Positions 9,901 through 62,682 of a DNA stretch of 64,000 nt are shown here, piece after piece. The DNA is from Panopea generosa. Taxonomy: Eukaryota; Mollusca; Bivalvia; Adapedonta; Hiatellidae. Position numbers and translations under genes: made by a program. The DNA lies in the NCBI GenBank assembly GCA_029582155.1, contig CM055897.1, positions 14,622,482 through 14,686,481 of the forward strand, in the 5' to 3' direction. The notes below the pieces were generated by a model. That model did not search any database. It was not told the DNA's origin and saw nothing but the letters and a program-made list of their open reading frames with translations. Each line of letters opens with the position of its first letter. Position 1 is the stretch's first letter.

Positions 9901-12900
9901 CAAAACTAGCAGTAATAGTAGTTTTATTCACAGGTAATAATACTTTACATGTATATACAACAATACTAACATACTAATGTTTTAGAAGAAATTGTTTGTT
10001 TTTTTATTTCATATTAATAAACTGATGAAAGTTATTCTATTAGCTCATAACGAGCAATCTGAACACTTCCTGCAATGTTTTCCACTCTGTCAGTTAATAT
10101 AAACACAATTCACCCAATAATTCAAAAACCTTCTATATTAGGTGTCCAAAGGCATCTATATTAGGTGTCCAAAGGTGTCTATATTAGGTGTCCAAAGGTG
10201 TCTATATGAAGTAAAGGGTGAAAAAAAACTTCTGAAAGGGTCTGTGTATTTAATCAATATTTGGTTTGTAGTTGTACGTTATAAGCTCAATATTTGTGAA
10301 TATCCGTCAAATGTTACATGAGTTGTGGTCCCTTTTCCATTTAATTTTTGGTTAAAATTACTAACATAATGTAGCACTGGCATATGTTTCAGATAGTCAC
10401 ATTTCTTTTTATAATTTCATTTTATTTCAAATCTGTGTCTTCATGTTCTTTTAATATTTTGGTTAAATCATAATTTAAAAAGTTGTGCTACCTCCTTTAT
10501 TTGTGTGTATCATTTCTAACAACTGATGCTTGTGTTTTACAGAGCTTGTTTGCAAGGAACTTTTACAATTTCAAGTACCTGGCCCTGTTACTGGCGTTTT
10601 TGATCAACTTCATGTTGCTCTTCTACAAGGTAATCTTTGTTTAGTTTTGTTTAAACTTATTTATTTTACTTCAGTTGTAAAACAACTTCTTAAAACTTAT
10701 ACAACTCATGCTTAGAGTTTTCCTGGGTAGAACCAGTACGGAGCATATGCAGATCAAGTGTCTTGCTCAAGGACACTATGGGGCTTGATTCTCTGCCATG
10801 ACCCCTGTAGTGTCCTTGAGCAAGATGCTTCATCTGCATATGCTTAGTACTTGTTCTACCCTGGAAGACTTAAAGTGTGATTTGTCTGAGTGTTTCACAA
10901 TCGATGTAAAATAGATCAGTATGTAAAATGTATTTCTTTATTAAACAGTCATATAAAAAAAAAAATGTAGTGGGCGTGGTAAAAAAAAATATAGGTCATC
11001 ATGTTACTTTATTAATTTGCTGATAAATAACACTGTGATCTTTTATAAATTAATGTCTTTGAATATCAAAATGTAACAGTTGAAAAAGTCACCTCTTGTA
11101 AATGTTGATATAAATATATTTAAGTACATTATATACATTTAAGTACATTATATACATTTAAATGCATTATATACATTTAAGTACATTATATACATTTAAG
11201 TGCATTATTTACATTTACAATTCAGGTTTCGAGAATGACTGGAGACCTAATTGGAGATACCGATTCAGAAATTGATGCCAAAGTGAATATCACAGATGCT
11301 GGTGGAGAAGGCGGGGAGGAAGAAGAAGTAGAAGAGTTCGTTTCCATGGAGGATTCCAGTTACTACATGGATCCAATACTGCGTCTGCTGGCTGTTGGAC
11401 ACTCCTTGGTCGCCTTTTCCATGCTCATTGCTTACTATTGTCTGAAGGTCCCACTGGTTATTTTTAAGCGTGAAAAAGAGATTGCAAGAAAACTGGAATT
11501 TGATGGATTGTGGATTGCCGAGCAACCAAGTGATGATGACTTGAGAGCCCACTGGGATAAACTAGTACTCAGTACACGGTCCTTCCCTGATAGTTACTGG
11601 GATAAATTTGTTAAGAAAAAGGTAATTTGAGCGATATTAAATCATTTTCTGTATGTTAATTTATATCCTGGAGAAGGCTCAGATAGCAGATATGTAAATT
11701 TATAAAATTAACTAAACTGAAAGTTATGTGTCCATGATTCTTAAATTTTTCAAGAAAAAGATAAAATTCATGTTAAATTTTATAAATATTGTCTTTTTTT
11801 AATATACATTGGTAGATACATAGATTTTATCGTTAGTATCACATCATAAACACATACAAATGCAGTCCTTATAGTAGCAGTATATGAATTCAATTAAAAA
11901 TGCTTTCAGTCAGTTTCAGTTTTCTTTGAATAGCTGAACTCTTGGTAATTACTGAAGTTGAACATTTATAGAAAGGATTTGTGTGCCTCTCACTTTACTT
12001 GCTTTCTGTTCTCAGTCAACAATTTCTTAAACACCCAGGCTAGATGAAGATGCAATAGTCCAGAAATAAGCATGGATAATGTTTTATAGTCGTCATGTTA
12101 GGGTTCTAAAAGGGCATTTTTCTGTGTTCTCAGGTGCGCAATCGTTATGCAGAGCAATATGAGTATGAAGCAATCAGTAACCTGCTGGGCATGGAGAAGA
12201 GTGATGCCATTACAATAGACAAAGATGAGGGCAGCGGAGTGTTCAACTTGTACGTTTTTCCTAGTCATCCGATTTTTGTTGTTTAATTTTTGAGTTGTGT
12301 ATAAAGTTGTAAGGGTAAAATAAATCACCATAAAAAAGTGAAAGTTGAACTTGCTTGCATGCTAAAGTTGAAGCGTATTTTGAATACAGAGCCTGGATTC
12401 TCGTTATGACAATATGTCTTTGGAAAGAGCTTAAGCTGTTTAAATTAATTTGATCAACATTTTACATCTACAGTGTTAAATACATTTAAGTATTCTTCAA
12501 AAAGAACAATCCAGAACAATGTGAAAAAAATTCCTTACTCCAGGGCACAAAATATTTCTAGTGACCCATTTTCTATATACAGACCATCAAGGCGGATCAC
12601 AATTCTTCATATTTGTTCATTTAAAAGGAAAATTTATAGCTTATTCATGCAAGCTATATATATATTGTATTGCTAAAATATAAACATTAATAAAAAAAGT
12701 CCTTTACACTATATGAATTTTCTCACATGTATATATAATGGTGCTCATAACCACAAAATGTTCAGGTTATGACTGGTTTCTTTTTCAGCCTACAAAATGT
12801 AGACTGGCAATACCAGATTTGGAAGTGGGGAGTCATCTTTACTGACAACGTGAGTAGTTGTGGCTCTTTTGTGACATTGTCTTTATTGTCTTACCATTTA

Positions 12901-15900
12901 AATGTAGTGAAATTAGTCCCCTGTTACTGTGATTGTTTTTCCTCTATTTTTTTACCATTTGCATAAGTAACATGTAAGCATTTCAATATATAATGTCTTG
13001 TTTTTCTGTCTGAATATAATTTGATTTCCGACTTACGTTGTTTGTTTTTTTAGTTTTTGAAATCTGAAAACCATATTTGGTATCTACAGCTCAGTTGCCT
13101 ATGTATTTACTGAATTTACTTCATAATAAACAATATTTAAATATTCTTATTTGATTTTTATTTCCAGTCATTCCTCTACATTGCCTGGTATTTTATCTTC
13201 TCTTGTTTGGGCAATTTGAACTACTTCTTCTTCGCTGCTCACCTCCTGGATGTCGCCATCAGTTTCAACACTCTGAGGACCATCATGCAGTCAGTCACTC
13301 ATAACGGCAAACAGGTGTGTAAAAATACATGGCATAAATAAAGTTCAGTCTCAAAATGTAACATTTAAAACACACTGTACAATTGTAGTGGTACATTATA
13401 CTGGAGCATAAGGGTGGTATTTTAATGACCAGGAATTCAATTTATATATTGTATTTTGAACTAGGGTATAAATTCATCAACTTTATAGTCTAAAGCCCAG
13501 ACTTGAACTCAGAATTGACGAGTTTTAAATACATTTTGATAGCAAAAGGTTAATAGTTAAAACATATTATTTGTTATATTTACTGATAATGTATGATTGA
13601 AATTAATAGTTTATGTAGGCAAAATACTGTTAATTTCTTGTAAAATTGATTTTAATACAAATTACAAAATTTCAGATTTTTAATCTGAGACTGAAGACTT
13701 TCATGAGTTTATGCCCAGTTTTTTTTTAGTTTAAACTTATTTTACTTTGATTGTGAAGCAAGTTCTTACAACTTAGACAAATCATGCTTGAAGTCTTCCT
13801 GGGTAGAACCAGTACAAAGCATATGCAGTAAAAGTGTCTTGCTCAAGGACACCACACAATCCTCCGATCATGAGTTCTGTGCTCTACCACTGGACCACGT
13901 GCTTCCAGGGGTATAAAGGCAATAAGACTAGCTTAAGGAGAATGATTTAAAAGTACTTATGGTAAACTAGTTGATGTCTGTCATGCTTGTTTTGATTATA
14001 AAAATTATTTTAAAAAACATTTCTATGGAATCATTTTATCATACCATTGAAAACTATTAAATACACTACATTTTGCATCATACATGACCACAAATGTGTG
14101 AAAAAATTTTGTTTTTCATATCTTTGCCAGTGTCTTATCTATTGTAATAGATGTGTAGATTGTGCCAATATTGTCATGAAACTTTGTATGTTACAGCTGG
14201 TACTCACGGTGATGTTACTCAGTATTATTGTGTATATCTACACTGTGATAGCCTTCAATTTCTTCCGTAAGTTCTATGTTAAAGAAGAAGATGGATCGGT
14301 GGACTACAAGTGCCATGACATGTTGACAGTAAGCTTTCTTGTTTTCTTTGACATGTTTCTTTACTCTGTGTGAAATTGAGCAAGAGAAAAAAGTGAAACT
14401 GCTCTGTTCATATAAAATATAAATATGTATAACTTAAGGCATCTCTTAGCTGTCAGTCTTATTTATTCTAGGTAATAATCTACAGGCCTGACCTGTGGAT
14501 AATTCCCTTCCTGGTGAAAAGCCAGAGACATATGTCAGAGAACACTGTAATGATAAATGTTTCATTTAGGTGCATCTTCCGATACATTACTTTATAATCT
14601 TGATCACCTTCCGTGTTCCAACTAAGCAGTTCACAATAACAATTGCGCATCCGCCATAAAAATTATGTTTGTTGTAAATTGTTGCATCTTTCAGGTTTAT
14701 GACCTTTTATACAATATAGCTTTATATGTCACTACCTTTGGAAGCATTTAATACATGACTGTACATGTTATCTATTTCAGTGTTTTGTCTACCATCTACA
14801 CACGGGTGTACGGGCAGGAGGAGGTATAGGTGATGAGATTGAACCTGCTGACGGAGACCCGTACGAGGTTTTCCGAATATTGTTTGACATCAGTTTCTTT
14901 TTCTTCGTTATTGTTATACTGCTGGCCATTATTCAGGGTAAGTTATATTTTATTAAAATAAATTCTGACATCTCAGTTAAGAGTTATAATTGATCAATAT
15001 TGTATTTAGAGACTGCTTGAATGTTTTTTTCAGATTTGTCAATGCACCATGTTTAATACATTTAAGCAGAGTGCAGTGGTAGAATGTTGGCTGCTCACAC
15101 CAAAAATAGCGGATTTGATCCCAGAATCAGTCTGATAACCTTTTAAGAAAAATACTTCATACATATTCCTGGCAAGGAAAGGGACTCTCTGAGCTTCCTT
15201 CATAGCCTAGTTTAAAATGCATCCTGCATCCTGTCTATTATACAGGAGACTAGTTCACTAAGTCAGAAATTATAGGTACCATATTTCATGTCTGCTCTTT
15301 ATCTTGTAAGCCAATTGACAGATTTTGAATTAACATGTCTTAAATGTTCATCATATGAGGACAGCATTGGAGTGCAGGTTATCTTTAGTACTAGTGGGTT
15401 CAACATGTTTTTCTTGTGCATCTTTTATAAAACTAGTATTTCCTAGGCAGGAAGGTATGTCTGGTACATAATATATACAATGCAGACAGTGTTGCAACAG
15501 CCAGAATATCATTAATAACAAGAGACAGGAAAATATTTGCTTTGTATAGATATTGACTGCCATGTTATTTTAGTTACTATACATAATATGATACATGCTA
15601 CTTCAGGTGTTTTAGTTATAATACATAATATGTTACATGCTACTTCAGGTGTTTTAGTTACTATACATAATATGATACATGCTACTTCAGGTGTTTTAGT
15701 TATAATACATAATATGTTACATGCTTCGTCAGGTGTTTTAGTTACAATACATAATATGATACATGCTACTTCAGGTGTTTTAGTTACAATACATAATATG
15801 ATACATGCTACTTCAGGTATTTTAGTTACTATACATAATGCGATACATGCTACTTCAGATGTTTTAGTTATAATACATAATATGTTACATGCTTCTTCAG

Positions 15901-18900
15901 GTGTTTTAGTTACAATACAAAGTATGATACATGCTACTTCAGGTGTTTTAGTTACAATACATAATATGATACATGCCACTTCAGGTGTTTTAGTTACAAT
16001 ACATAATATGTTACATGCCACTTCAGGTGTTTTAGTTACAATACATAATACGATACATGCTACTTCAGATGTTACAATATATAATACGATACATGCCACT
16101 TCAGGTGTTTCAGTTACAATACATAATATGATACATGCCACTTCAGGTGTTTTAGTTACAATACATAATATGTTACATGCCACTTCAGGTGTTTTAGTTA
16201 CAATACATAATGCGATACATGCTACTTCAGGTATTTTAGTTACAATACATAATATGTTACATGCCACTTCAGGTGTTTTAGTTACAATACATAATACGAT
16301 ACATGCTACTTCAGGTATTTTAGTTACAATACATAATATGTTACATGCCACTTCAGGTGTTTTAGTTACAATACATAATATGATACATGCTACTTCAGGT
16401 ATTTTAGTTACAATACATAATATGATACATGCTACTTCAGGTATTTTAGTTACAATACATAATATGATACATGCTACTTCAGGTATTTTAGTTACAATAC
16501 ATAATATGATACATGCTACTTCAGGTATTTTAGTTACTATACATAATATGATACATGCTACTTCAGGTATTTTAGTTACAATACATAATATGTTACATGC
16601 TTCTTCAGGTATTTTAGTTACAATACATAATGCGATACATGCTATTTCAGGTGTTTTAGTTACAATACATAATATGATACATGCTACTTCAGGTATTTTA
16701 GTTACAATACATAATATGATACATGCCACTTCAGGTGTTTGTTACAATACATAATATGTTACATGCCACTTCAGGTGTTTTAGTTACAATACATAATACG
16801 ATACATGCTACTTCAGGTGTTTTAGTTACAATACATAATATGATACATGCCACTTCAGGTGTTTTAGTTACAATACATAATATGTTACATGCTACTTCAG
16901 GTGTTTTAGTTACAATACATAATACAATACATGCCACTTCAGGTGTTTTAGTTACAATACATAATACAATACATGCCACTTCAGGTGTTTTAGTTACAAT
17001 ACATAATGTGATACATGCTACTTCAGGTGTTTTAGTTACAATACATAATGCGATACATGCTACTTCAGGTGTTTTAGTTACAATACATAATACGATACAT
17101 GCTACTTCAGGTGTTTTAGTTACAATACATAATATGTTACATGCTTCTTCAGGTATTTTAGTTACAATACATAATGCGATACATGCTACTTCAGGTGTTT
17201 TAGTTACAATACATAATACGATACATGCTACTTCAGGTGTTTTAGTTACAATACATAATATGTTACATGCCACTTCAGGTAATTTAGTTACAATACATAA
17301 TATGTTACATGCTACTTCAAGTGTTTTAGTTACAATACATAATATGTTACATGCTTCTTCAGGTTTGATCATCGATGCATTTGGAGAGTTGAGAGATCAG
17401 CTGGAACAAGTGAAGGAGGACATGGAGGTAAGTGTTAAAGGGCCATTAGCTCCATTTACATTTGTAGCTCTACTGGTCAAAGATCAACCTCGGGTTTTAC
17501 TAGAAGAGGATGTCAAGGTCATGGGCCTTTCATTTTATTAGTTATTTTATTTATCAGTAAGTTAAAAGTACCTTTCTGACTATCGTAGAATGAATTTGAT
17601 ATTTAATACTCAAAATACTGTTTTAGATACACATTTGCTAGTTCCACCCTTCAATTATTTGTAATTTTCTGTTGATTTTTTTTGTTAATATAATAATTGA
17701 ATGTAGTTTTATCACATGATTTATGGTGCAGGAGTGTAATAAACCCATGACATATTTTTTATATTAACCAGTTGTAATATCACTTCTGATCAATCGTTCA
17801 TTGTTTTCCGTATAACTCAGCTCGCATACATAAATTGTGTAATTACTTTTGGACTTGCCTGAATATATAAATGATGTTGATTTGTCATGGTTAAATTACA
17901 TTTTTTGACACGTTGCGTCATACTGTCATGGTTAAATTACATTTTTTGACACATTGCATCATACGGTCATGGTTAAATTACATTTTTTGACACGTTGCGT
18001 CATATTGTCATGGTTAAATTACATTTTTTGACACATTGCATCATACTTGCGGAATCAAATTTGCTCGATTTTTTTCTCATTCCTATAGAGAAGATTATTT
18101 GTTTTTCCAAGTTATGTGATAACATGAATCTTACATTTATGCTCATTTATAATTAAATTTATCAAATTCATTTGGAAAATTAATATAATGCTCAGCAGAG
18201 CCTCACAAAATATATGTTTTCCAGCTCGTTTAATAATTCAATATTACATAAGCACTCGTGTAAGATGCTCTATATATGTATTAGCTTGGCTAATGTAGCA
18301 TTTTTTACCCCAAACATGCCAGGAAAAGTTGTTAGGTTAACTGACCATCTGTTAGTCCTGGTGACATAATAATGATGCTTTATATTAAACAAACCAAGAA
18401 TTTAAATCTAAGAATTAACAATTTATCTGGGGCTCAGTAGATTGAATTTAAAAAACAGAAAACGGACAAGAAATATGCTTCAGTTTTATTCCTTTTTCTC
18501 TTTTTGTATACATTTGTTTTATTCAACCCTATTTCATGTTTTAACTATTTTGTTTTATTGTATAAAAATGTATTTAAATTGAGAAAATAAAATATGTTTA
18601 AACCAATGTTCAAACTAAACTTAATTATTTGTTGCCTACTGCCATAAAATTGTTTAATAAAATCGTTTATAAACTGCTTAAAAACTTATGACACATTTTC
18701 TTATTTTTCTTTTTTTCAGTCCAAGTGTTTTATATGTGGTATTGGCAAGGAATACTTTGACAAAGTTCCTCATGGTTTTGAGACACATACCCAGAATGAG
18801 CACAACTTTGCTAATTATATGTAAGTATGGAGATTAATAGTGAATAATAACAAATGCTGATTTCAGTGAAATGTTATTGGTTGCTAAAAAAATTTTTTTT

Positions 18901-20809
18901 TTGTAACTTTTATTTCAATTTAGTTACAAAATTAAGTTGGTTGCTAAATATGCATCTTACCAGCTTGTCACAAAATGAATCAAATAGTCATGTCGCAAAT
19001 ATGCCTCCAATAGACATGTCACAAATATGCCTGCATAGACATGTTACAGATATGCTTCCAATAGACATATCACAAATTTGCCTCCAGTAGACATGTCACA
19101 AACATACCCACAATAGGCGTGTCACAAATATGCCTCAAAAAGACATATCACAAATATGCCTCCATATACATGTCACAAATATGCCTCCAATAGACATGTC
19201 ACAAATATGCCTCCATAGACATGTCACAAGTATGTCTTCAATAGGCATGTCACAAATTGAGTCAAATACACATGTCACAAATATGCTTCCAATAGGCATG
19301 TCACAAATTGAGTAAAATACACATGTCACAAAAATGCCTCCAATAGACATGTTACAAATATGCCTCCAATAGACATGTCACAAATACGCCTCCAATAGAC
19401 ATGTCACAAATATGCGTCCAATAGACATGACACAAAAATGCCTCAAATACACATGTCACAAATATGCCATCATAGACATACATGTTACAAATATGCCTCC
19501 AATGGACATGTTACAAATATGCCTCCAATAGACATGTCACAAATACGCCTCCAATAGACCTGTCACAAATATGCATCCAATAGACATGTCACAAAAATGC
19601 CTCAAATACACAATGTCATGTCACAAATATGCCATCATAGACATGTCACAAAAATGCCTCAAATAGACATGTCACAAATATGCCTCCAATAGACATGTCA
19701 CAAATATGCCTCCAATAGACATGTCACAAATATGCCTCCAATATACATGTCACAAAAATGCCTCAAATACACATGTCACAAATATGCCTCCATAGACATG
19801 TCACAAATATGCATCCAATAGACATGTCACAAAAATGCCTCAAATACACATGTCACAAATGTGCCTCAATAGGCATGTCACAAATATGCCTCCAACAGGC
19901 GTGTTACTCATATGAGGTGGGTAGACATTGTCACAAATATGGGTCAGATAAATATCTTACAATATAGTAAAACCTGTCTTATGCAGTCACTCAAGGGAAA
20001 GAGGAAAAATGACCTCTTAAGATAGGTGGTTGCTTAATACAGGTTGATTAAAACTAAACTTACAAAAATTGTAAATACAAAATGTGGCTGTTTTAAACAA
20101 GTGGTTACTTAATAGAGGTGACCACTAACACAGGTTTGACTGTACATATAAATTGGGTAAGGCAGTCTAAAAAATGTGCCGAAATATGTGTGAGATAGGC
20201 ATGTCACAATCAATGATGCATCTTATAATTCAGCATGCCACAAACATGGGTAATATAGGCATGTCACAAAATACAGGTAAGTTGAGCATGTCGCAAGTAG
20301 GGATCAGATAAGCATGTCACAAATAGTTGTATTAAGAATGTCACAAATATTGATCAGATGGGCATGTCACAAATAGGGGTTAAATATACATGTCACAAAT
20401 AGAACTTACATATACATGTCACAAATAGGGGTTAGATATGCTTGTCACAAATAGGGGTTAGATATACATGTCACAAATAGGGGGTAGATATGCTTGTCAC
20501 AAATAGGGGTTAGATATTCATGTCACACATAGGGGTTAGATATACATGTCACAAATATGGGTTAGATATACATGTCACAAATAGATACATGTCACAAATA
20601 CGGGTTAGATATTTTTATTATATTTGTATTTTTGGTGTGTTTTCAGGTTCTTTCTCATGCATCTGATCAACAAGCCGGACACGGAGTACACGGGTCAGGA
20701 GACATATGTATGGGAGCTGTACCAACAACGATGTTGGGATTTCTTCCCAGTCGGTGACTGCTTTAGAAAACAATATGAAGATGAGATAGGCGGGGCCCAA
20801 AAGAGTTGA
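876..20809 (+). CDS. RyR: Ryanodine receptor, C-terminal channel part (17 exons, 5' end outside window)
   Basis: RyR is the homotetrameric calcium-release channel of the endoplasmic/sarcoplasmic reticulum. I rebuilt 17 exons with GT-AG introns and consistent phases: 876-974, 1695-1780, 2242-2442, 3545-3751, 4589-4727, 5553-5614, 6645-6747, 10543-10629, 11226-11621, 12134-12249, 12789-12849, 13168-13314, 14197-14328, 14781-14937, 17363-17427, 18720-18820, 20647-20809. They total 2322 nt, giving 773 residues and a TGA stop. Family hallmarks are [28 protein letters not shown] (S1), [20 protein letters not shown], the pore motif GGGIGDEIE, the S6 gate [16 protein letters not shown], the zinc-binding CFICGIG, and the terminal [17 protein letters not shown]. 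Most of the protein (about 4,000+ residues in the family) must be encoded upstream. The introns are unusually rich in tandem arrays. Confidence 0.97.
1240..1560 (+). repeat. Interspersed repeat family R1, copy in RyR intron
   Basis: Shares TATTTTAGTCTAACCTAGGC, CAAGTTAGGAAATCCCTTTT and GGATCAGTGAGTAAAT-type blocks, in the same order, with 56810-57110 (plus). Part of it recurs on the minus strand at 55840-56010. No ORF and no recognised family. Confidence 0.65.
1695..1780 (+). CDS. RyR: RyR exon 2 of window
   Basis: Acceptor CTCTCTACAG|ATGCAA and donor GGAGG|GTATGT. It continues FCEDTIFE with [17 protein letters not shown], the expected RyR order, and leaves two bases of a glycine codon completed by the next exon. 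Confidence 0.9.
2242..2442 (+). CDS. RyR: RyR exon 3 of window
   Basis: Acceptor TTATTTGTAG|CGTC and donor TTTTG|GTAAGT. It encodes [19 protein letters not shown], then a basic stretch and the hydrophobic [20 protein letters not shown], a membrane-associated helix ahead of S1. The splice leaves TG, completed to Trp by G at 3545. Confidence 0.9.
2786..3027. mobile_element. MITE with GGGyTGCGTTTCACAAAA terminal inverted repeats
   Basis: The left end reads GGGCTGCGTTTCACAAAATA and the reverse complement of the right end reads GGGTTGCGTTTCACAAAAAA, followed by a similar ACGTACGA. About 240 bp, no ORF; a non-autonomous DNA element in a RyR intron. Confidence 0.8.
3250..3395. repeat. about 43-bp tandem repeat (3-4 units)
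   Basis: CGATATTGTTACTGTTTTTG recurs at about 3260, 3300 and 3356 with CAGATgAAATA spacers. It lies in the RyR intron, 150 bp before exon 3545. Confidence 0.8.
3545..3751 (+). CDS. RyR: RyR exon 4 of window (Pro/Glu-rich linker)
   Basis: Acceptor CATTTCAG|GACAC and donor CAAAC|GTAAGT. A short hydrophobic start ([12 protein letters not shown]) runs into a Pro/Glu-rich linker (residues about 130-198 of the fragment). Such linkers between the first hydrophobic segment and S1 are the divergent part of RyRs. A 43-bp tandem repeat lies upstream of this exon in the intron. Confidence 0.88.
3970..4540. other. RyR intron sequence, degenerate repeat debris
   Basis: No gene seen. Bases 4097-4165 resemble a repeated body segment (GTCTTCCTCACCAATTAAAC) also found near 7733, 25610 and 32530. 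Bases 4430-4470 begin like CAGGGCTTGAAATTT-type elements (compare 35883). Confidence 0.5.
4589..4727 (+). CDS. RyR: RyR exon 5 of window (Ser/Thr/Pro-rich linker)
   Basis: Acceptor TTTCTTACAG|AATC and donor CCAATG|GTAATA, 46 codons after the split Thr. Low-complexity [18 protein letters not shown] followed by a Pro-rich stretch; divergent cytosolic linker. A CT/TA microsatellite follows the donor immediately. Confidence 0.82.
4735..4802. repeat. (CT)n-(TA)n microsatellite
   Basis: CT-rich run followed by about 18 alternating T/A bases, directly after the exon 4589-4727 donor. Confidence 0.9.
4855..5110. repeat. about 78-bp degenerate tandem repeat (3 units)
   Basis: Units share CTCTAATTTGCTTGATTCAG, TACAATCC and ATTGTCTCAATTTAGA. 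The array precedes and abuts the 63-bp acceptor array. Confidence 0.7.
5117..5552 (+). repeat. 63-bp minisatellite carrying the 3' splice site (7 acceptors)
   Basis: The motif CTCCACGTGCAG|G(A/G)AGAT recurs with AG at 5173-5174, 5236-5237, 5299-5300, 5362-5363, 5425-5426, 5488-5489 and finally 5551-5552, spaced 63 bp each (62-63 at the last step by exon junction). The last one is the acceptor used for RyR exon 5553. Each unit therefore contains the acceptor, its upstream intron sequence and a near copy of the first exon bases. Read in the exon frame, units contain TAA (GGAGATATGTATTAA), so use of an upstream copy would truncate the protein. Confidence 0.92.
5553..5614 (+). CDS. RyR: RyR exon 6 of window (short linker exon)
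   Basis: Acceptor CACGTGCAG|GGAGATACC and donor CAATT|GTAAGT. It encodes [20 protein letters not shown]. Its acceptor and first eight bases are copied at least six times upstream every 63 bp. The last copy is taken as the real acceptor because the upstream copies lead to in-frame TAA. Confidence 0.82.
6239..6483 (+). mobile_element. TTAA-flanked piggyBac-like MITE, copy 1
   Basis: TTAA at both ends (6239-6242, 6480-6483). Terminal inverted repeats are CCCTTTACTCCATAGACAC and its near complement ending AAGAAAAGGG. A long internal hairpin pairs GAAAACAGTGCAGGAAG with CTTCCTGCACTGTTTTC. TTAA targets and CCC termini are piggyBac features. No ORF. Lies in a RyR intron. Confidence 0.85.
6645..6747 (+). 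CDS. RyR: RyR exon 7 of window
   Basis: Acceptor TTCTTTAG|GAGTGG and donor GCACTT|GTAAGT. It encodes a Gly/Ser-rich start then [20 protein letters not shown], ending in phase 0 immediately before the S1 exon. The following intron (6748-10542) is 3.8 kb and contains a MITE, a 93-bp array and SINE debris. Confidence 0.85.
6867..7164 (+). mobile_element. TTAA-flanked piggyBac-like MITE, copy 2
   Basis: Same element as 6239-6483, with TTAA at 6867-6870 and 7161-7164. Its 3' part has extra AGAGGTGTCAAAAGGCG repeats (about five), so it is longer. Both copies sit within 400 bp on either side of exon 6645-6747. Confidence 0.87.
8340..8905. repeat. about 93-bp minisatellite
   Basis: Blocks ACACAATTTTAGGGGGCACA, TGGCGTACACTGGTTTCGGC and ACCAGACAAAGGTTGTGGGG recur about six times. 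The two ORFs across it (8293-8679 and 8537-9103) are repeat-driven and not considered genes. Confidence 0.85.
9170..9310 (+). repeat. SINE-like remnant
   Basis: GGTCGTGGGTTTGATCCTGG resembles a tRNA B-box, followed by GGTACTACCCAGGAGACTGA, the complement of the CTGGGTAGAACCAG core seen at the window start. The rest of this RyR intron up to 10040 shows no gene. Confidence 0.55.
10038..10219 (+). mobile_element. piggyBac-like MITE, copy 3 (5'-truncated)
   Basis: Begins inside the central hairpin (ACGAGCAATCTGAACACTTC) and ends TATGAAGTAAAGGGTGA. The left half and the right TTAA are lost. Confidence 0.8.
10543..10629 (+). CDS. RyR: RyR exon 8 of window: S1 helix
   Basis: Acceptor TTTTACAG|AGCTTG and donor TACAAG|GTAATC, 29 codons. 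[20 protein letters not shown] then INFMLLFYK is the RyR S1 segment (NFYNLRFLALFLAF-type motif). Confidence 0.95.
10715..10868. repeat. Long inverted repeat (SINE-derived)
   Basis: The left arm CTGGGTAGAACCAGTACGGA...GTGTCTTGCTCAAGGACAC is mirrored on the right by GTGTCCTTGAGCAAGATGC...GTACTTGTTCTACCCTGGAA. The arms are about 60 bp with a short loop. It can form a large hairpin in the transcript between exons 8 and 9. Confidence 0.8.
11115..11225 (+). repeat. 19-bp minisatellite abutting an exon acceptor
   Basis: ATATACATTTAAGTACATT recurs every 19 bp (core starts about 11121, 11140, 11159, 11178, 11197) and runs to ACATTTACAATTCAG at the acceptor of exon 11226. Confidence 0.88.
11226..11621 (+). 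CDS. RyR: RyR exon 9 of window: acidic S1-S2 loop, S2, KREKE linker
   Basis: Acceptor ACAATTCAG|GTTTCG and donor AAGAAAAAG|GTAATT, 132 codons. It carries a very acidic luminal loop ([11 protein letters not shown]), the S2 helix ([20 protein letters not shown]), [20 protein letters not shown] and [20 protein letters not shown], all diagnostic of RyR. A 19-bp minisatellite runs directly up to the acceptor. Confidence 0.97.
12134..12249 (+). CDS. RyR: RyR exon 10 of window
   Basis: Acceptor GTTCTCAG|GTGCGC and donor AACTT|GTACGT. It encodes [20 protein letters not shown] followed by an acidic stretch, the S2-S3 linker of RyRs. Confidence 0.92.
12789..12849 (+). CDS. RyR: RyR exon 11 of window
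   Basis: Acceptor CTTTTTCAG|CCTAC and donor GACAAC|GTGAGT. It encodes [20 protein letters not shown], the segment leading into S3, highly conserved in RyRs. Confidence 0.95.
13168..13314 (+). CDS. RyR: RyR exon 12 of window: S3 and S4
   Basis: Acceptor ATTTCCAG|TCATTC and donor AAACAG|GTGTGT, 49 codons. [20 protein letters not shown] is S3; [20 protein letters not shown] then VTHNGKQ is S4 and the S4-S5 linker. Confidence 0.97.
13785..13912 (-). repeat. SINE fragment with tRNA-like end
   Basis: CTTCCTGGGTAGAACCAGTA and GTGTCTTGCTCAAGGACACC match 10715-10868. The right side (GAGTTCTGTGCTCTACCACT, GGACCACGTGC) is a minus-strand tRNA 5' half. Confidence 0.65.
14197..14328 (+). CDS. RyR: RyR exon 13 of window: S5
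   Basis: Acceptor TATGTTACAG|CTGGTA and donor [32 protein letters not shown] is S5, followed by [13 protein letters not shown] and YKCHDMLT entering the pore loop. Confidence 0.97.
14781..14937 (+). CDS. RyR: RyR exon 14 of window: pore helix, selectivity filter, most of S6
   Basis: Acceptor CTATTTCAG|TGTTTT and donor ATTCAGG|GTAAGT. It encodes [12 protein letters not shown], the filter GGGIGDEIE, and S6 ([18 protein letters not shown]), and ends after the first base of the glycine codon of IIQGLIIDAF. In vertebrate RyR1 this glycine (G4934) is the proposed S6 hinge just before the gate isoleucine. The intron therefore interrupts the gate-forming helix. Confidence 0.97.
15060..15255 (+). repeat. 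Degenerate tRNA-derived SINE
   Basis: GCAGTGGTAGAATGTTGGCT is A-box-like and GCGGATTTGATCCCAGAATC is B-box-like, about 45 bp apart. Lies in the intron that contains the 42-bp array. Confidence 0.5.
15561..17362 (+). repeat. 42-bp minisatellite carrying the 3' splice site (about 43 units)
   Basis: The unit is TTTTAGTTACAATACATAAT + ATGATACATGCTACTTCAGGTG, repeated for 1.8 kb. Each unit ends in TACATGCyACTTCAG|GT, the same sequence as the real acceptor of RyR exon 17363 (ACATGCTTCTTCAG|GT). Two length variants are seen. One unit near 16070 lacks 6 bp. One near 16740 lacks 2 bp (GGTGTTTGTTACAA). Because 42 is a multiple of three and the unit has no stop in several frames, it gives long open frames on both strands (15537-16754 and 16723-17541 plus; 15512-16729 and 16731-17372 minus). 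Those are not regarded as genes in themselves. The second plus-strand frame runs on without interruption into the RyR exon in the RyR reading frame. Confidence 0.96.
17363..17427 (+). CDS. RyR: RyR exon 15 of window: S6 gate, start of C-terminal domain
   Basis: Acceptor GCTTCTTCAG|GTTTGATC and donor ATGGAG|GTAAGT. It encodes the rest of the hinge glycine, [20 protein letters not shown] and E. Its acceptor is the last of about 43 near-identical AG|GT sites in the 42-bp array. Confidence 0.96.
17884..18048. repeat. 41-bp tandem repeat (4 units)
   Basis: TGTCATGGTTAAATTACATT followed by TTTTGACACGTTGCGTCATA; starts at about 17886, 17927, 17968 and 18009. RyR intron. Confidence 0.9.
18320..18392 (+). 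repeat. SINE-B 3' remnant
   Basis: GTTAGGTTAACTGACCATCT, GTTAGTCCTGGTG and AATGATGCT match the 3' body of the SINE-B copies at 49475-49770 and 63033-63320; the tRNA head is missing. Confidence 0.65.
18720..18820 (+). CDS. RyR: RyR exon 16 of window: zinc-binding C-terminal domain
   Basis: Acceptor TTTTTTTCAG|TCCAAG and donor [31 protein letters not shown] then [14 protein letters not shown] contains the C-x2-C and H-x-H... zinc ligands of the RyR/IP3R C-terminal domain. Confidence 0.97.
18970..19963. repeat. 26-bp minisatellite (CATGTCACAAATATGCCTCC AATAGA), left block
   Basis: About 36 diverged units. ORFs reading MSQICLH repeats (18854-19090, 19130-19315, 19758-19967) are repeat artefacts. 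The array continues at 20160-20605 after an inserted MITE. Confidence 0.9.
19965..20143 (-). mobile_element. MITE with ACAGTCAAACCTGT ends, copy 1 (splits the 26-bp array)
   Basis: Ends TAGTAAAACCTGTC and CAGGTTTGACTGTA are inverted repeats next to TA. The interior (GTGGTTACTTAATAGAGGTG, AAACAAGTGG) matches 28498-28679 in reverse orientation. 26-bp repeat units lie on both sides. Confidence 0.8.
20160..20605. repeat. 26-bp minisatellite, right block
   Basis: Units CATGTCACAAATAGGGGTTA GATATA are a variant of the left block, with divergence increasing away from 20400. Ends about 40 bp before the last RyR exon. Confidence 0.88.
20647..20809 (+). CDS. RyR: RyR exon 17 of window: C-terminus and stop
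   Basis: Acceptor GTGTTTTCAG|GTTC. It encodes [53 protein letters not shown] and TGA. Family members end near QYEDQL; the six or so extra residues are unremarkable. Confidence 0.97.
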
Positions 20810-38954: not shown

Positions 38955-39330
38955 GACTACAATGGTTCCAGTATAGATTTAACCATAGAATTTTAGGAAC
39001 CAACAATTTACTAAAAAAATGAACATTACCAACTCTGAAACCTGCACTTTATGCAACAAATCTGTTGAATCAATTAAACGTTTATTTTATGATTACTATA
39101 TTGCAAAAACATTTTGGAAAGACTTATCAATTTTTATTAGAAATAAGTGTATTAATATTTTGATTAATTGGTTGGAGTTGGATACAATTCTAGGGAACAA
39201 AAAATATGATACAATACTAAATAATATTTTGATTCTTGGAAAATATTACATATTTAATAGAAAAAAAAATGAAACCATGTTGTGTCAAATCATTCATTTT
39301 TTAAAATCAATTTATAAAATAGAAAAATAA
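38955..39330 (+). pseudogene. LINE ORF2 3' fragment (non-LTR retrotransposon)
   Basis: One open frame reads LQWFQYRFNHRILGTNNLLK, then KMNITNSETCTLCNKSVESI and KRLFYDYYIAKTFWKDLSIF. WFQyRinhRILgtN and C-x2-C...E...LF..y....FW are the hallmarks of the region after the reverse transcriptase in L1/Tx1-like LINEs (zinc-binding RT tail). It is 5'-truncated, with TGA immediately upstream, and ends in TAA at 39330. Confidence 0.75.
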
Positions 39331-41632: not shown

Positions 41633-42314
41633 TACATAAACTGCATCTATTGCCAGAGATGAATAACAAAACGAACTATAAACAAGTATAAACTGTGCTT
41701 GATATTCAACATGGTCAACTTATATAATTGCTCCACTAGGCAGAGGCACCCGCTATATCAATAATTGCATGGGGATATCGCTTAAATAACTGTCCAAACT
41801 CTATCAAACAGCACAAAATAATTAATAGGTAAATGACAAATAAAGGATAATAGGTAAGTTATAACAAAATACAAAATACAGAATTTTATTTATAGTTGGC
41901 ATGAGACACAATAAACATTAGCTGTGTATCGCTATTGACCAATGAAATGTAAGCCTGACTGTTTGTAGTAGTTACTACTGTTAATAATTTATTTAACAAC
42001 CCTTGTGAACTCAAACCAAAATTATTGAAATGATCTCGGGCTATATTTCATTGAAAGGATTTCTAATGTGTTTCTTGCTAATATCTCCATTAAACAACCA
42101 ATTTAAATGGGTTTTTCACTTGATTCTTCTGTGTCGGGTATTTGGATGAATAGAAAGACAAATTTTCATTTTGGGTTACCATATTGCCATATTTTACAGA
42201 GGCTTAATATTCATTACTGATAAAACACATTGTCTTTTTTTTTAATTCAACAATATAATAATTTATATTTTAATCTCTGCAGGTGATGTAGCAATATCTA
42301 ATTCGCGAGAGAAA

Positions 42315-42758
42315 ATGAAGTTTCGTCAGCGAATTGCATGGTTGTTGGTTGCTGTGTATCTGGCATGCACATTTGCTTTCATATACTATGTATTTGAAAT
42401 AAATGACCATTACAACAGCTTTGCATTGGATCATGTGCAAAAATTCCACACACCAGATTTGAACAAAAACAGTGAAAAATCTCTGCCCAAACCATCCATA
42501 TTCTCGACGGTTTGGAGTCATGTGACAGACTTACCCATGCCTTTCTGGGTCATACTTTTTCTCTTGCCATACCTACAACTATTCATGATGATATTGGCAT
42601 GTACACGGGCGGAACCAAAAATGAGTGTAGCGTATCTCTGGCCAGGACTGCTGTACCTCAAATATCAGCAGGTGTTTAACAAGCAGCCAGGTAACTCGAT
42701 CATTCCATTGGAAGCTCACAAATTGACTAAAAATGGATTTACAGTGATTCATACTTGA
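42315..42758 (+). CDS. LYSET: Lysosomal enzyme trafficking factor (TMEM251) homologue
   Basis: LYSET (TMEM251) is a Golgi membrane protein that stabilises and retains GlcNAc-1-phosphotransferase and is therefore needed for mannose-6-phosphate tagging of lysosomal enzymes. The 147-residue protein begins MKFRQRIAWLLVAVYLACTF, matching the family start M-N-FRQRMGW. It has membrane helices at about 7-29 and 75-96, the motif YYVFEIxxxYNxxALxHxQ after helix 1, and PFWV..FLxPYLQxFxxxxxCTRAxPK over helix 2. Coding is a single exon after an acceptor at 42282 (CTCTGCAG). The C-terminal 40 residues are divergent. The first ATG in the exon was chosen because it fits the family N-terminus. Confidence 0.92.
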   Translation: MKFRQRIAWLLVAVYLACTFAFIYYVFEINDHYNSFALDHVQKFHTPDLNKNSEKSLPKPSIFSTVWSHVTDLPMPFWVILFLLPYLQLFMMILACTRAEPKMSVAYLWPGLLYLKYQQVFNKQPGNSIIPLEAHKLTKNGFTVIHT

Positions 42759-45164: not shown

Positions 45165-45935
45165 TTTACAGTCTGGACAGTCAGTATTATACATATGGTC
45201 ATTAATATCATTATATGTAGTTTACAGTCTGGGCAGTGGACAGTCAGTATTATACATATGGTCATTAATATCATTATATGTAGTTTACAGTCTGGGCAGT
45301 GGACAGTCAGTATTATACATATGGTCAATAATATCATTATATGTAGTTTACAGTCTGGGCAGTGGACAGTCAGTATCATACATATGATCATTAATATCAT
45401 GATATGTAGTTTACAGTCTGGGCAGTGGACAGTCAGTATCATACATATGATCATTAATATCATTATATGTAGTTTACAGTCTGGGCAGTGGGCAGTCAGT
45501 ATTATACATATGATCATTAATATCATTATATGTAGTTTACAGTCTGGACAGTGGACAGTCAGTATTATACATATGGTCATTAATATCATTATATGTAGTT
45601 TACAGTCTGGGCAGTGGACAGTCAGTATTATACATATGGTCATTAATATCATTATATGTAGTTTACAGTCTGGGCAGTGGACAGTCAGTATCATACATAT
45701 GATCATTAATATCATTATATGTAGTTTACAGTCTGGGCAGTGGACAGTCAGTATCATACATATGATCATTAATATCATGATATGTAGTTTACAGTCTGGG
45801 CAGTGGACAGTCAGTATCATACATATGATCATTAATATCATTATATGTAGTTTACAGTCTGGGCAGTGGGCAGTCAGTATCATACATTGGATCATTAATA
45901 TCATGATATGTAGTTTACAGTCTGGACAGCCAGTA
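45165..45935. repeat. 63-bp minisatellite (12 units)
   Basis: GTCAGTATTATACATATGGT CATTAATATCATTATATGTA GTTTACAGTCTGGGCAGTGG ACA repeats every 63 bp with very low divergence. It produces open frames on both strands (45195-45953 plus; 45155-46225 minus with CPDCKLH repeats). Unit length 63 is the same as in the 5117-5552 array but the sequence is unrelated. Confidence 0.95.
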
Positions 45936-48960: not shown

Positions 48961-49109
48961 GCTTGTTTCATGTATCCATTTTGTACAATCTTGTTTCAGG
49001 TATCTACTTTGTACAATCATGTAGTTTTGATGTGCTTAAAGATATCAAGAGGAATTCATTTTTTGTCAGAATATTAGCCGACTTATTTCAATTGATTTTC
49101 ATGGAATAC

Positions 49110-50369: not shown

Positions 50370-51565
50370 ACAGTGCCTATATAAATGTATAATACTAATA
50401 CAATTGTATACTATAAAGTGCTAATACAATTGTAAACTATATAGTGCTAATACAATTGTATACTATATAGTGCTAATACAATTGTATACTATATAGTGCT
50501 AATACAATTGTATACTATATAGTGCTAATACAATTGTATACTATATTGTGCTCATACAATTGTATACTATATAGTGCTAATATAATTGTATACTATATAG
50601 TGCTAATACAATTGTATACAATATAGTGCTAATATAATTGTATACTATATAGTGCTAATATAATTGTATTCTAAATAGTGCTAATATAAATGTATACTAT
50701 AAAGTGCCTTTATAATGGTATACTATATAGTGCCTATATAAGGGGATACTATATAGTACTTATATAATGGTATACTATATAGTGCCTATATAAATGTATA
50801 CTATATAGTGCTTATATAATTGTATACTATATAGTGCCTATATAATTGTATACTATATAATGCTTATATAATTCTATGTTATATAGTGCCTATATAAATG
50901 TAAACTATATAGTGCTTATATAATTATATACTATATAGTGCCAATATAATTGTATACAATATAGTGCCTATATAAATGTATACTGCCTTTATAATTGTAT
51001 ACTATATAGTGCTTATATGATTGTATACTATATAGTGCCTATATAATTGTATGCTATATAGTGCCTATATAATTGTATGCTATATAGTGCATATATAATT
51101 GTATGCTATATAGTGCTTATATAATTGTATACTATATAATGCCTATATAAATGTATACTACCTATATAATTGTATACTATATAGTGTTTATATGATTGTA
51201 TACTATATACTGCCTATATAATTGTATGCTATATAGTGCCTATACAATTGTAAACTATATAGTACCTATATGATTGTATACTATATATTGCCTATATAAT
51301 TGTATGCTATATAGTGTCTATATAAATGTATAGTGCCTATATAATTATATACTATATAGTGCTAAAATATTTGTATACTATATAGTGCCTATATAATTAC
51401 ATACTATATAATGTTAATATAATTGTTTACCAAATAATGCTAATATAATTGTATACTATATAGTGCTTATATAATTGTATACTGTATAGTGCCTATATAA
51501 ATGTATACTATATAGTGCCTATATAAATGCATACAATATAGTGCCTATATAATTAAATACTATAA
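50370..51565. repeat. 26-bp AT-rich minisatellite (about 45 units)
   Basis: Units TGTATACTATATAGTGCCTA TATAAT, with 5' units having CTAATACAAT instead of CTATATAAT. Self-complementary stretches (TATACTATATAGTG, TATATA) are dense. Subtypes are ordered along the array. Confidence 0.93.
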
Positions 51566-52262: not shown

Positions 52263-52915
52263 TATATGTTGCAATACAATGTCAAGGTATGTATGCTGAA
52301 ATACCATGTCAAGGTATGGATGCTGCAATACCATGTCAAGGTATGGATGTTGCAATATCATGTCAAGGTATGGATGCTGCAATACCATGTCAAGGTATGG
52401 ATGCTGCAATACCATGTCATGGTATGGATGTTGCAATACCATGTCAAGGTATGGATGCTGCAATACCATGTCAAGGTACGGATGCTGCAATACAATGTCA
52501 AGGTACGGATGCTGCAATACCATGTCAAGGTACGGATGCTGCAATACCATGTCAAAGTACGGATGCTGCAATACCATGTCAAGGTACTGATGCTGCAATA
52601 CCATGTCAAGGTACGGATGCTGCAATACCATGTCAAGGTACGGATGATGCAATATCATGTCAAGGTATGAATGTTGCAGTACCATGTCAAGGTATGGATG
52701 CTGCAGTACCATGTCAAGGTATGGATGCTGCAGTACCATGTCAAGGTATAGATGTTGCAATACCATGTCAAGGTATGGATGCAATACCATGTCAAGGTAT
52801 GGATGCTGCAATACCATGTCAAGGTATGGATGCAATACCATGTCAAGGTATGGATGCTGCAATACCATGTCAAGGTATGGATGTTGCAGTACCATGTCAA
52901 GGTATGGAAGATTCA
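52263..52915. repeat. 27-bp minisatellite (about 24 units)
   Basis: GGTATGGATGCTGCAATACC ATGTCAA repeated; two units lack 3 bp (GGTATGGATGCAATACC). It is open in most frames on both strands (for example 52232-53038 plus, 52200-53105 minus), an effect of the 27-bp period. Confidence 0.95.
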
Positions 52916-60577: not shown

Positions 60578-62682
60578 CAGTGAGCTCGACTATTTAAGTA
60601 TTTGTCACAAAAGTACAAATTTGATTGAGACAAGTCCAAGCAAAATTTAATAAGAGTTATCTAAGATTGACAAAATTGAGTAGGTCTTAAAACTGCAATA
60701 CCTTGTATGAAGTTTCAATTCAATACATGCAGTGGCTGGCGAGTTATAAAATTTCTATGTCAAACAAATGCTCTAATTTGTAAAAAAAATCTGGCAAGAA
60801 TTATCCCACTTGATTAATTCTGACTACAAAGCCATATGTAAAGTTTCGATAAAATATATTGAGTGGTGTGATATGGACTCGACGGTATTGGCACGCAAAA
60901 CTTTAAAAAAAAATCTAAGTCAAAGAAGGACAACGATTTGTAGTATATTCATGTAAGAGTTATCTAACTTAGTTATTGTAGTACAGTTGATGACTGGGAA
61001 TGCTTGTGTAAAATTTCAATCAAATACATTGAGTGGTTGGTGAGATATGGACTTGATTGTACTTGCATGCAAAACTTTAACCAGAATTTCTTTGTCAAAC
61101 AAGGGCAATACTATGCATTATATTCAAGCAGGAGTTATATAACTTAGTTTTTGTAGCAGGCTTGATGACTGGGAAGTCTTGTGTAAGGTTTCAAGTCAAT
61201 ACAATCATGCAATGGTCACAGAGATATGTACTTGCACGCAAAACTTTAACCAGATTTTCCAAGTCAAACAAAGAAAATAAATTGCATAAGCAAGAATTAT
61301 TTAACTTAGTTATTGTAGTAGTGTTGGTGACTGGGAAGGCTTGTGTAAAGTTTCAATCAAATACCTCGAGTGATTGGTGACTGGTGAGATATGGATTTGA
61401 TGGTACTTGTGTGCAAAACTTTAAACAGAATTTCTAAGTCAAACAAGGGCAATAATTTGCATTATATTCAAGCAAGAGTTATCTATCTTAGTGACTGTAG
61501 CAGTTTTGATGACTGGGAAATTTTGTGTAAAGTTTCAAGTCAATACATGCAATGGTTACTGAGATAGAGACTTGCGTGTAAAACTTTAATCAGATTTTCT
61601 AAGTCAAACAAGGGCAATTATTGCATTATATTCAAGCAAAAGTTATTTTATTTAGTTACTGTCATAGGATTAATGACTATGAAGCATGTGTGAAGTTTCA
61701 ATCAAGTACACTGAGTGGTTGGTGAGATATGATAGTACTTGCATACAAAACTTTAACCAGAATGTCTAAGTCAAACAAGGGCAATAATTTGCCTTATATT
61801 CAAGCAAGAGTTATCTATCTTAGTGATTGTAGCAGTTTTGATGACTGGGAAATTTTGTGTAAAGTTTCAAGTCAATACATGCAATGGTTACTGAGATAGA
61901 GACTTGCGTGTAAAACTTTAATCAGATTTTCTAAGTCAAACAAGGGCAATAATTTGCATTATATTCAAGCAAAAGTTGTTTTATTTAGTTACTGTCATAG
62001 GATTAATGACTATGAAGCATGTGTGAAGTTTCAATCAAGTACACTGAGTGGTTGGTGAGATATGATAGTACTTGCATACAAAACTTTAACCAGAATGTCT
62101 AAGTCAAACAAGGGCAATAATTTTGCATTATATTCAAGCAAGATTATCTCACTTAGTAATTGTAATAGGTTTGATGACTGGGAAGTTTTGTGTGAAGTTT
62201 CAATCTAATACATTAAGTGGTTGGTGAGATATTGATTTGATAGTACTTGTGTGCAAAACTTTAAACAGAATTTCTAAGTCAAACAAGGGCAATAATTTTC
62301 ATTATAATCGAGCAAAAGTTATCTAACTTAGTTATTGCCATAGGGTTAATTACTATGAAGCTTGTGTGAAGTTTAAATCAAATACACTGAGTGGTTGGTG
62401 AGATATGATAGTACTTGCAAGCAAAACTTTAACTAGAATGTCTAAGTCAAACAAGGGCAATAATTTTGCATTATATTCAAGCAAGAGTTATCTAACTTAG
62501 TTATTGTAGAAGGGTTGGTGACTGGGATGGCTTGTGTAAAGTTTAAATCCAATACATGCAATGGTTACTGAGATATGAGCTTGCACACGATACTTTTACC
62601 AAGGTGTGACGCCAACGCCAATGCCACGCCCGGGTGAGTAGAATAGCTCTCCCTTATTCTTCGAAAAGTCGAGCTAAAAATA
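60578..62682. mobile_element. 2.1-kb TIR element with internal about 168-bp satellite
   Basis: Ends AGCTCGACTATTTAAG (left) and, as complement, AGCTCGACTTTTCGAAG (right). Between them, about 12 units of 162-182 bp repeat: GTCAAACAAGGGCAATAATT, TGCATTATATTCAAGCAAGA, GTTATCTAACTTAGTTATTG, TGATGACTGGGAA and GTGTAAAGTTTCAATCAAAT. Units at 61511-61840 and 61841-62171 form a nearly identical two-unit repeat. AGCTC ends link it to the 46018, 56379 and 58898 elements. No transposase. Confidence 0.82.

Follow-up and report, generated by a model that had tools for sequence, protein, structure and literature searches.

A 42-bp minisatellite repeating an intron's 3' splice site in front of the gate exon of a ryanodine-receptor gene in Panopea generosa

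Intron 13 of a ryanodine-receptor (RyR) gene of the bivalve Panopea generosa ends in a 42-bp minisatellite of 43 units (15568–17364, + strand), and each unit closes with a copy of the 3' splice site of that intron. We regard this array as a passive minisatellite of the type called mirage in lancelets, in which the last acceptor would win through features of exon 14, downstream of it; we give this reading a probability of about 0.65. The window, that is, the whole stretch of DNA that was analysed, is 64,000 nt long (assembly GCA_029582155.1, contig CM055897.1, positions 14,622,482 to 14,686,481 of the forward strand), and all coordinates refer to it.

The ryanodine-receptor gene and the array in intron 13

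The + strand of the window carries the 3' end of the RyR gene. Reading frame and splice consensus served to place sixteen exons, numbered locally, from position 876 to a stop near 20809. Exons 7 to 16, a ten-exon model, encode a single open protein of 474 residues, of which residues 2–468 matched RyR2 (E 2.4e-204). Exons 1 to 6 were placed by eye, and their assignment to RyR, by likeness, is putative; exons 5 and 6 are out of phase, so that a boundary or an exon is missing there. The tail of the receptor seems to be of protostome type.

Exon 13 (14781–14937, +) has a RyR match and covers the end of the pore region and the first part of S6. It terminates with the residues AIIQ and the first base, G, of the codon for the hinge glycine, and is followed by a GTAAGT donor at 14938. 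Intron 13 (14938–17362, +) is 2425 nt long, lies in phase 1 and cuts this codon, leaving its GT to exon 14 (17363–17427, +). The latter exon is 65 nt long and purine-rich, has a GTAAGT donor, and contains, after the rest of the glycine codon, the gate isoleucine and the start of the cytosolic S6. By alignment position, the split glycine is G4934 of RyR1 and the isoleucine three residues on is I4937, which are listed as the S6 hinge and the gate, respectively (PMC12119028, in excerpt). The location at the channel gate, claimed in the preliminary description of this DNA, is thereby sharpened to the hinge glycine codon. The exon starting at 17363, which that description took to be real, is borne out by the open model running across it. 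Moreover, the model over the 14937/17363 junction agrees with the solved RyRs. Conservation shows, at the protein level, that a working channel would need exon 13 to be joined to 17363.

Tandem Repeats Finder gave for the array a period of 42, with 43.0 copies, 92% matches and 0% indels, which confirms the forty-odd copies reported earlier. At its right end the array extends two bases into exon 14. Cutting after each CTTCA[AG] divided it into 43 units, of which 40 are exactly 42 bp long; the others are a partial unit at the left edge, a unit of 36 bp (ending at 16104) and one of 40 bp (ending at 16774). The AG is retained in 42 of the 43 units, the exception being the unit ending at 17320 (CAA), and CAG/GT, where the slash marks the splice junction, is found in 40, with CAG/AT at the acceptors 15858 and 16068. 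Every unit had been said to end, like the real acceptor, in TACATGCyACTTCAG/GT. This exact motif is present in 34 of the 43 units, and the real site is not among them. A 29-base core, searched with up to three mismatches, gave 42 matches in the window, all 42 inside the array, versus 0.00 expected from 100 shuffles. We found no sign that the AG was kept by selection, many other columns of the unit being equally constant.

The list of tandem repeats in the window has 55 rows, some of them overlapping. A 19-bp minisatellite of 5.5 copies (11114–11217) terminates 8 bases upstream of the exon 8 acceptor of RyR (11226), and the degenerate copy at its end reaches over the likely branch and pyrimidine region of that acceptor. 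Two 26-bp arrays in intron 15 (18966–19895 and 20233–20600) have the common core TGTCACAAATA, and the second stops 46 bases short of the final RyR exon. An acceptor-like 28-bp tandem is located at 48962–49022, where no exon was recognised by reading. Further large minisatellites occupy 45174–45929 (63 bp), 50398–51564 (26 bp), 52266–52908 (27 bp) and 60914–62584 (units of 333 bp). Outside the RyR gene, a reading frame at 42246–42755 (+) matches TMEM251 (PF15190, E 1.6e-27), and 38989–39327 (+) has a weak match, below the curated cut-off, to the reverse-transcriptase zinc-binding domain PF13966, and is perhaps a retroelement relic. Scans of the window for Rfam families and, with a scan that uses the bacterial code, for tRNAs both gave 0 hits.

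Origin of the array

A near-copy within −4000/+3000 bases was found for a single one of the 31 splice sites of the gene, the exon 14 acceptor (33 of 36 bases). For the other 30 sites there was none within this distance, the best agreement being 25 of 36 bases among the three best matches listed per site. Because only the exon 14 acceptor has such a near-copy, the simplest origin is a duplication of the 3' end of the intron itself, and the proposal of the preliminary description that the array grew in this way is upheld at that level. The duplicated stretch would have been the final 42 nt of the intron, copied in tandem, and the repeat runs through the AG and two exon bases. To the right of 17364 the sequence is unlike the unit (p 0.87), and the exon bases common to the unit are the GT only.

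Alternatively, the array may have arisen independently within the intron, its end later replacing an older acceptor. Such a history would fit a last unit that is no closer to the others than is typical (rank 22 of 42 in mean identity), as well as the degenerate unit piece that lies at 15465–15483, about 85 bp left of the array (a weak match, its score being reached by 1 of 500 mononucleotide shuffles). However, minisatellites homogenise, so that the rank in mean identity says little, and an independent origin requires both that the reading frame be taken over exactly and that the old site be lost, neither of which is required by a founder duplication. We consider it rather unlikely.

A much smaller probability is given to an assembly artefact, in which the copy number or the order of the units would be wrong. 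The array consists of 1.8 kb of units that are 92% alike, and one lancelet mirage was aberrantly assembled in a draft genome (PMC3087553, in excerpt), which makes such an error conceivable. On the other hand, there are 27 distinct unit sequences, including that of the left edge, and their order is non-periodic. Neighbouring units were no more similar than expected (permutation p 0.32), nor did unit identity decay over distance (permutation p 0.28; 42 units in both tests, the left-edge one being dropped). This is unlike a copied block, and the end units would persist even with a wrong count. In the same permutation test, growth of the array could not be read as a likeness of neighbours.

Choice between the real acceptor and its copies

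The real acceptor, at the end of unit 43 (17321–17362, +), reads TACATGCTTCTTCAG/GT. Its better pyrimidine run had been proposed to mark it out. This proposal fails, as the same variant is present at 15900, 16608 and 17152, and the unit ending at the last of these (unit 38, 17111–17152, +) is identical to the last functional unit at 42 of 42 bases. The deciding information therefore lies outside the unit. In the copy closest upstream the AG is gone (CAA at 17320), a point absent from the preliminary description, which leaves 41 intact acceptors upstream. With one dead AG among 42 upstream units, the chance of its being the nearest is about 1 in 42. A one-base-shifted AG at this dead copy would be followed by a stop as the third codon.

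Acceptors were scored with a matrix derived from the 15 remaining acceptors of the gene; the splice matrices are rough, with 15 sites each, including those of the out-of-phase exons 5 and 6. The real acceptor scored 7.61, within the spread of the other 15 (−2.3 to 12.3, leave-one-out). It was surpassed by three of the 130 other AGs in 14949–17361, at 15245 (11.2), 15033 (8.9) and 15900 (7.99). Application of a splice-site model to every site, which the preliminary description had in view, thus places the units near the real site (up to 7.99 versus 7.61), but not the real site at the top. The AGs at 15033 and 15245 lie upstream of the array; therefore, if the model is right, strong AGs outside the array are bypassed as well. 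Secondary structure found no support as the deciding feature: the single stretch folded (17195–17460) had no unusual fold (z 0.56).

In the reading that we prefer, recognition would be set from the side of exon 14, by its consensus donor and by purine enhancer-type motifs. The donor is GAG/GTAAGT. For a list of purine-rich enhancer-type four-letter motifs that was picked after exon 14 had been seen, this exon contains 18.5 motifs per 100 nt, the top value of the 16 exons (the next is 13.1), and one reached by none of 1153 overlapping 65-nt intron windows. The density in the array is 0.0, because its one 42-base unit has no such motif. Every copy would be a plausible 3' splice site, and the last acceptor, closest to the exon 14 donor and motifs, would be favoured, its closest rival being without AG and the array without purine motifs. 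Upstream copies would then be used rarely, and the array may be tolerated for that reason. The charged protein sequence of exon 14 alone could account for its purine richness, and a need for such motifs is argued against by exons 3, 7, 11 and 15, which have 2.0 to 3.4 per 100 nt (2.0 in exon 11, 3.0 in exons 3 and 15). Normal mRNA has been reported despite the copies in lancelet mirages, Adh and TnC included (PMC3087553, PMC3902484, both in excerpt), which counts in favour of a passive array, whereas the second array site of human ABCA7 is used to some degree (PMC5954066, in excerpt), which counts against it.

Thirteen upstream acceptors (16774 to 17278) are in frame with exon 14 and stop-free into it. 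Their use would lengthen the message by 84 to 588 nt and so place 28 to 196 extra residues at the hinge glycine; the acceptor of unit 38, for instance, would add 210 nt (70 residues). The remaining 28 (15606 to 16734) are frame-shifted by a 2-bp deletion in the unit at 16735–16774 (+), and run into a stop. Two exons follow, so that messages bearing such a stop should be open to nonsense-mediated decay, and those from the 28 out-of-frame acceptors probably decay. With six of the intact acceptors upstream, the exon would measure 149–359 nt, inside the range of the gene's own exons (61–396 nt), and exon size alone therefore cannot explain the choice.

The array acceptors, above all the 13 in frame, might instead serve alternative isoforms in some tissues, with 14-residue repeats at the S6 hinge. 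The frames running open into exon 14, and unit scores close to that of the real site on the gene's own matrix, speak for such isoforms. We nevertheless find them unlikely. The open frame of the array is unremarkable; the chance that a given frame is open in a random unit of equal composition is 34%. The 40 full interior units contain 17 distinct variants, and in the exon frame 3 of these were synonymous and 14 non-synonymous, so that there was no excess of synonymous change (30 synonymous and 92 non-synonymous changes are possible). This pattern gives no support to a protein-coding tandem repeat, and the long open frames seen on both strands of the array are due to its 14-codon period. Furthermore, insertion of 28 or more residues into a very conserved helix, three residues before the gate, should destroy gating.

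A recursive use of the array was also considered. GT follows every unit except two, and a splice from exon 13 into an array acceptor would therefore recreate a possible donor (AGG/GT). Upstream acceptors might then be used routinely, and repeated splicing from the recreated donors would walk such errors down to the last acceptor, in a self-correcting ladder. The final rung would be offered by unit 42 (17279–17320, +), which follows the intact acceptor 17278, starts with the best recreated donor, GTAATT, and ends in the lost AG, resulting in an 84-nt step to 17362. The juxtaposition of acceptor and donor in the 40 units with CAG/GT favours this possibility, as do the scores of the recreated donors, 5.45 for GTGTTT, 6.92 for GTATTT (11 sites) and 8.61 for GTAATT after 17278; the true junction scores 3.81. 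However, the gene's own donors score 5.7–11.4 (15 donors, the same ones that trained the matrix), and most recreated donors (GTGTTT) are below the lowest of them. Drosophila recursive-splicing ratchet points, where acceptor and donor also stand back to back (AG/GT), sit in long introns (PMC8605326, in excerpt), whereas intron 13 is 2.4 kb long and has tens of tandem copies with mostly weak donors. We judge a recursive ladder, its self-correcting use and its last step to be quite improbable. If it were true, the gate exon would be protected by the same duplication that puts it at risk.

Related arrays and significance of the Panopea case

Through AG/GT of exon 14, the array unit includes the splice site of the adjoining exon, which is one mark of a mirage. 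Lancelet mirages, in Adh3, globins, troponin C and PGBD5, are minisatellite-like tandem duplications of an intron-exon boundary, with AG/GT retained in many units (PMC3087553, PMC3902484, both in excerpt). They are in different genes, and the present unit differs from theirs in having two exon bases only. As to copy number, the excerpts give 3 and 6 for two lancelet BflGb6 haplotypes, versus 43 here. Among the matches listed in the literature searched, no report of a mirage outside lancelets was found.

On the donor side, the array is mirrored by the VNTR of human ABCA7 intron 18, whose 25-bp units, not a multiple of three, have as their first two bases the exon 18 donor. Its alleles have about 12 to 427 units, and cases of one retained unit and of exon 19 skipping have been observed (PMC5954066, in excerpt). 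Effects of length on splicing have been shown in that case; the array described here lies on the acceptor side. In fission yeast, tandem units of 24-bp AGGT repeats are able to act as donor and acceptor, and an intron spans four AGGT copies in one gene (PMC4974935, in excerpt). There, in an intron gain by tandem duplication, exonic sequence turned into intron; here, it is the end of an old intron that was multiplied.

The kind of array is therefore already known, and what is notable is the copy number, the exact duplicate of a whole functional unit, and the place. How identical splice sites compete is a question usually approached with engineered duplicates. The Panopea gene is a natural case, where an acceptor has 41 intact copies upstream of it, one of them identical over 42 nt, and in which an in-frame error would put at least 28 residues at the gate hinge of a calcium channel. 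Should alleles differ in length, they would reveal whether splicing is affected by the repeat, as it is by repeat length in ABCA7 (PMC5954066, in excerpt).
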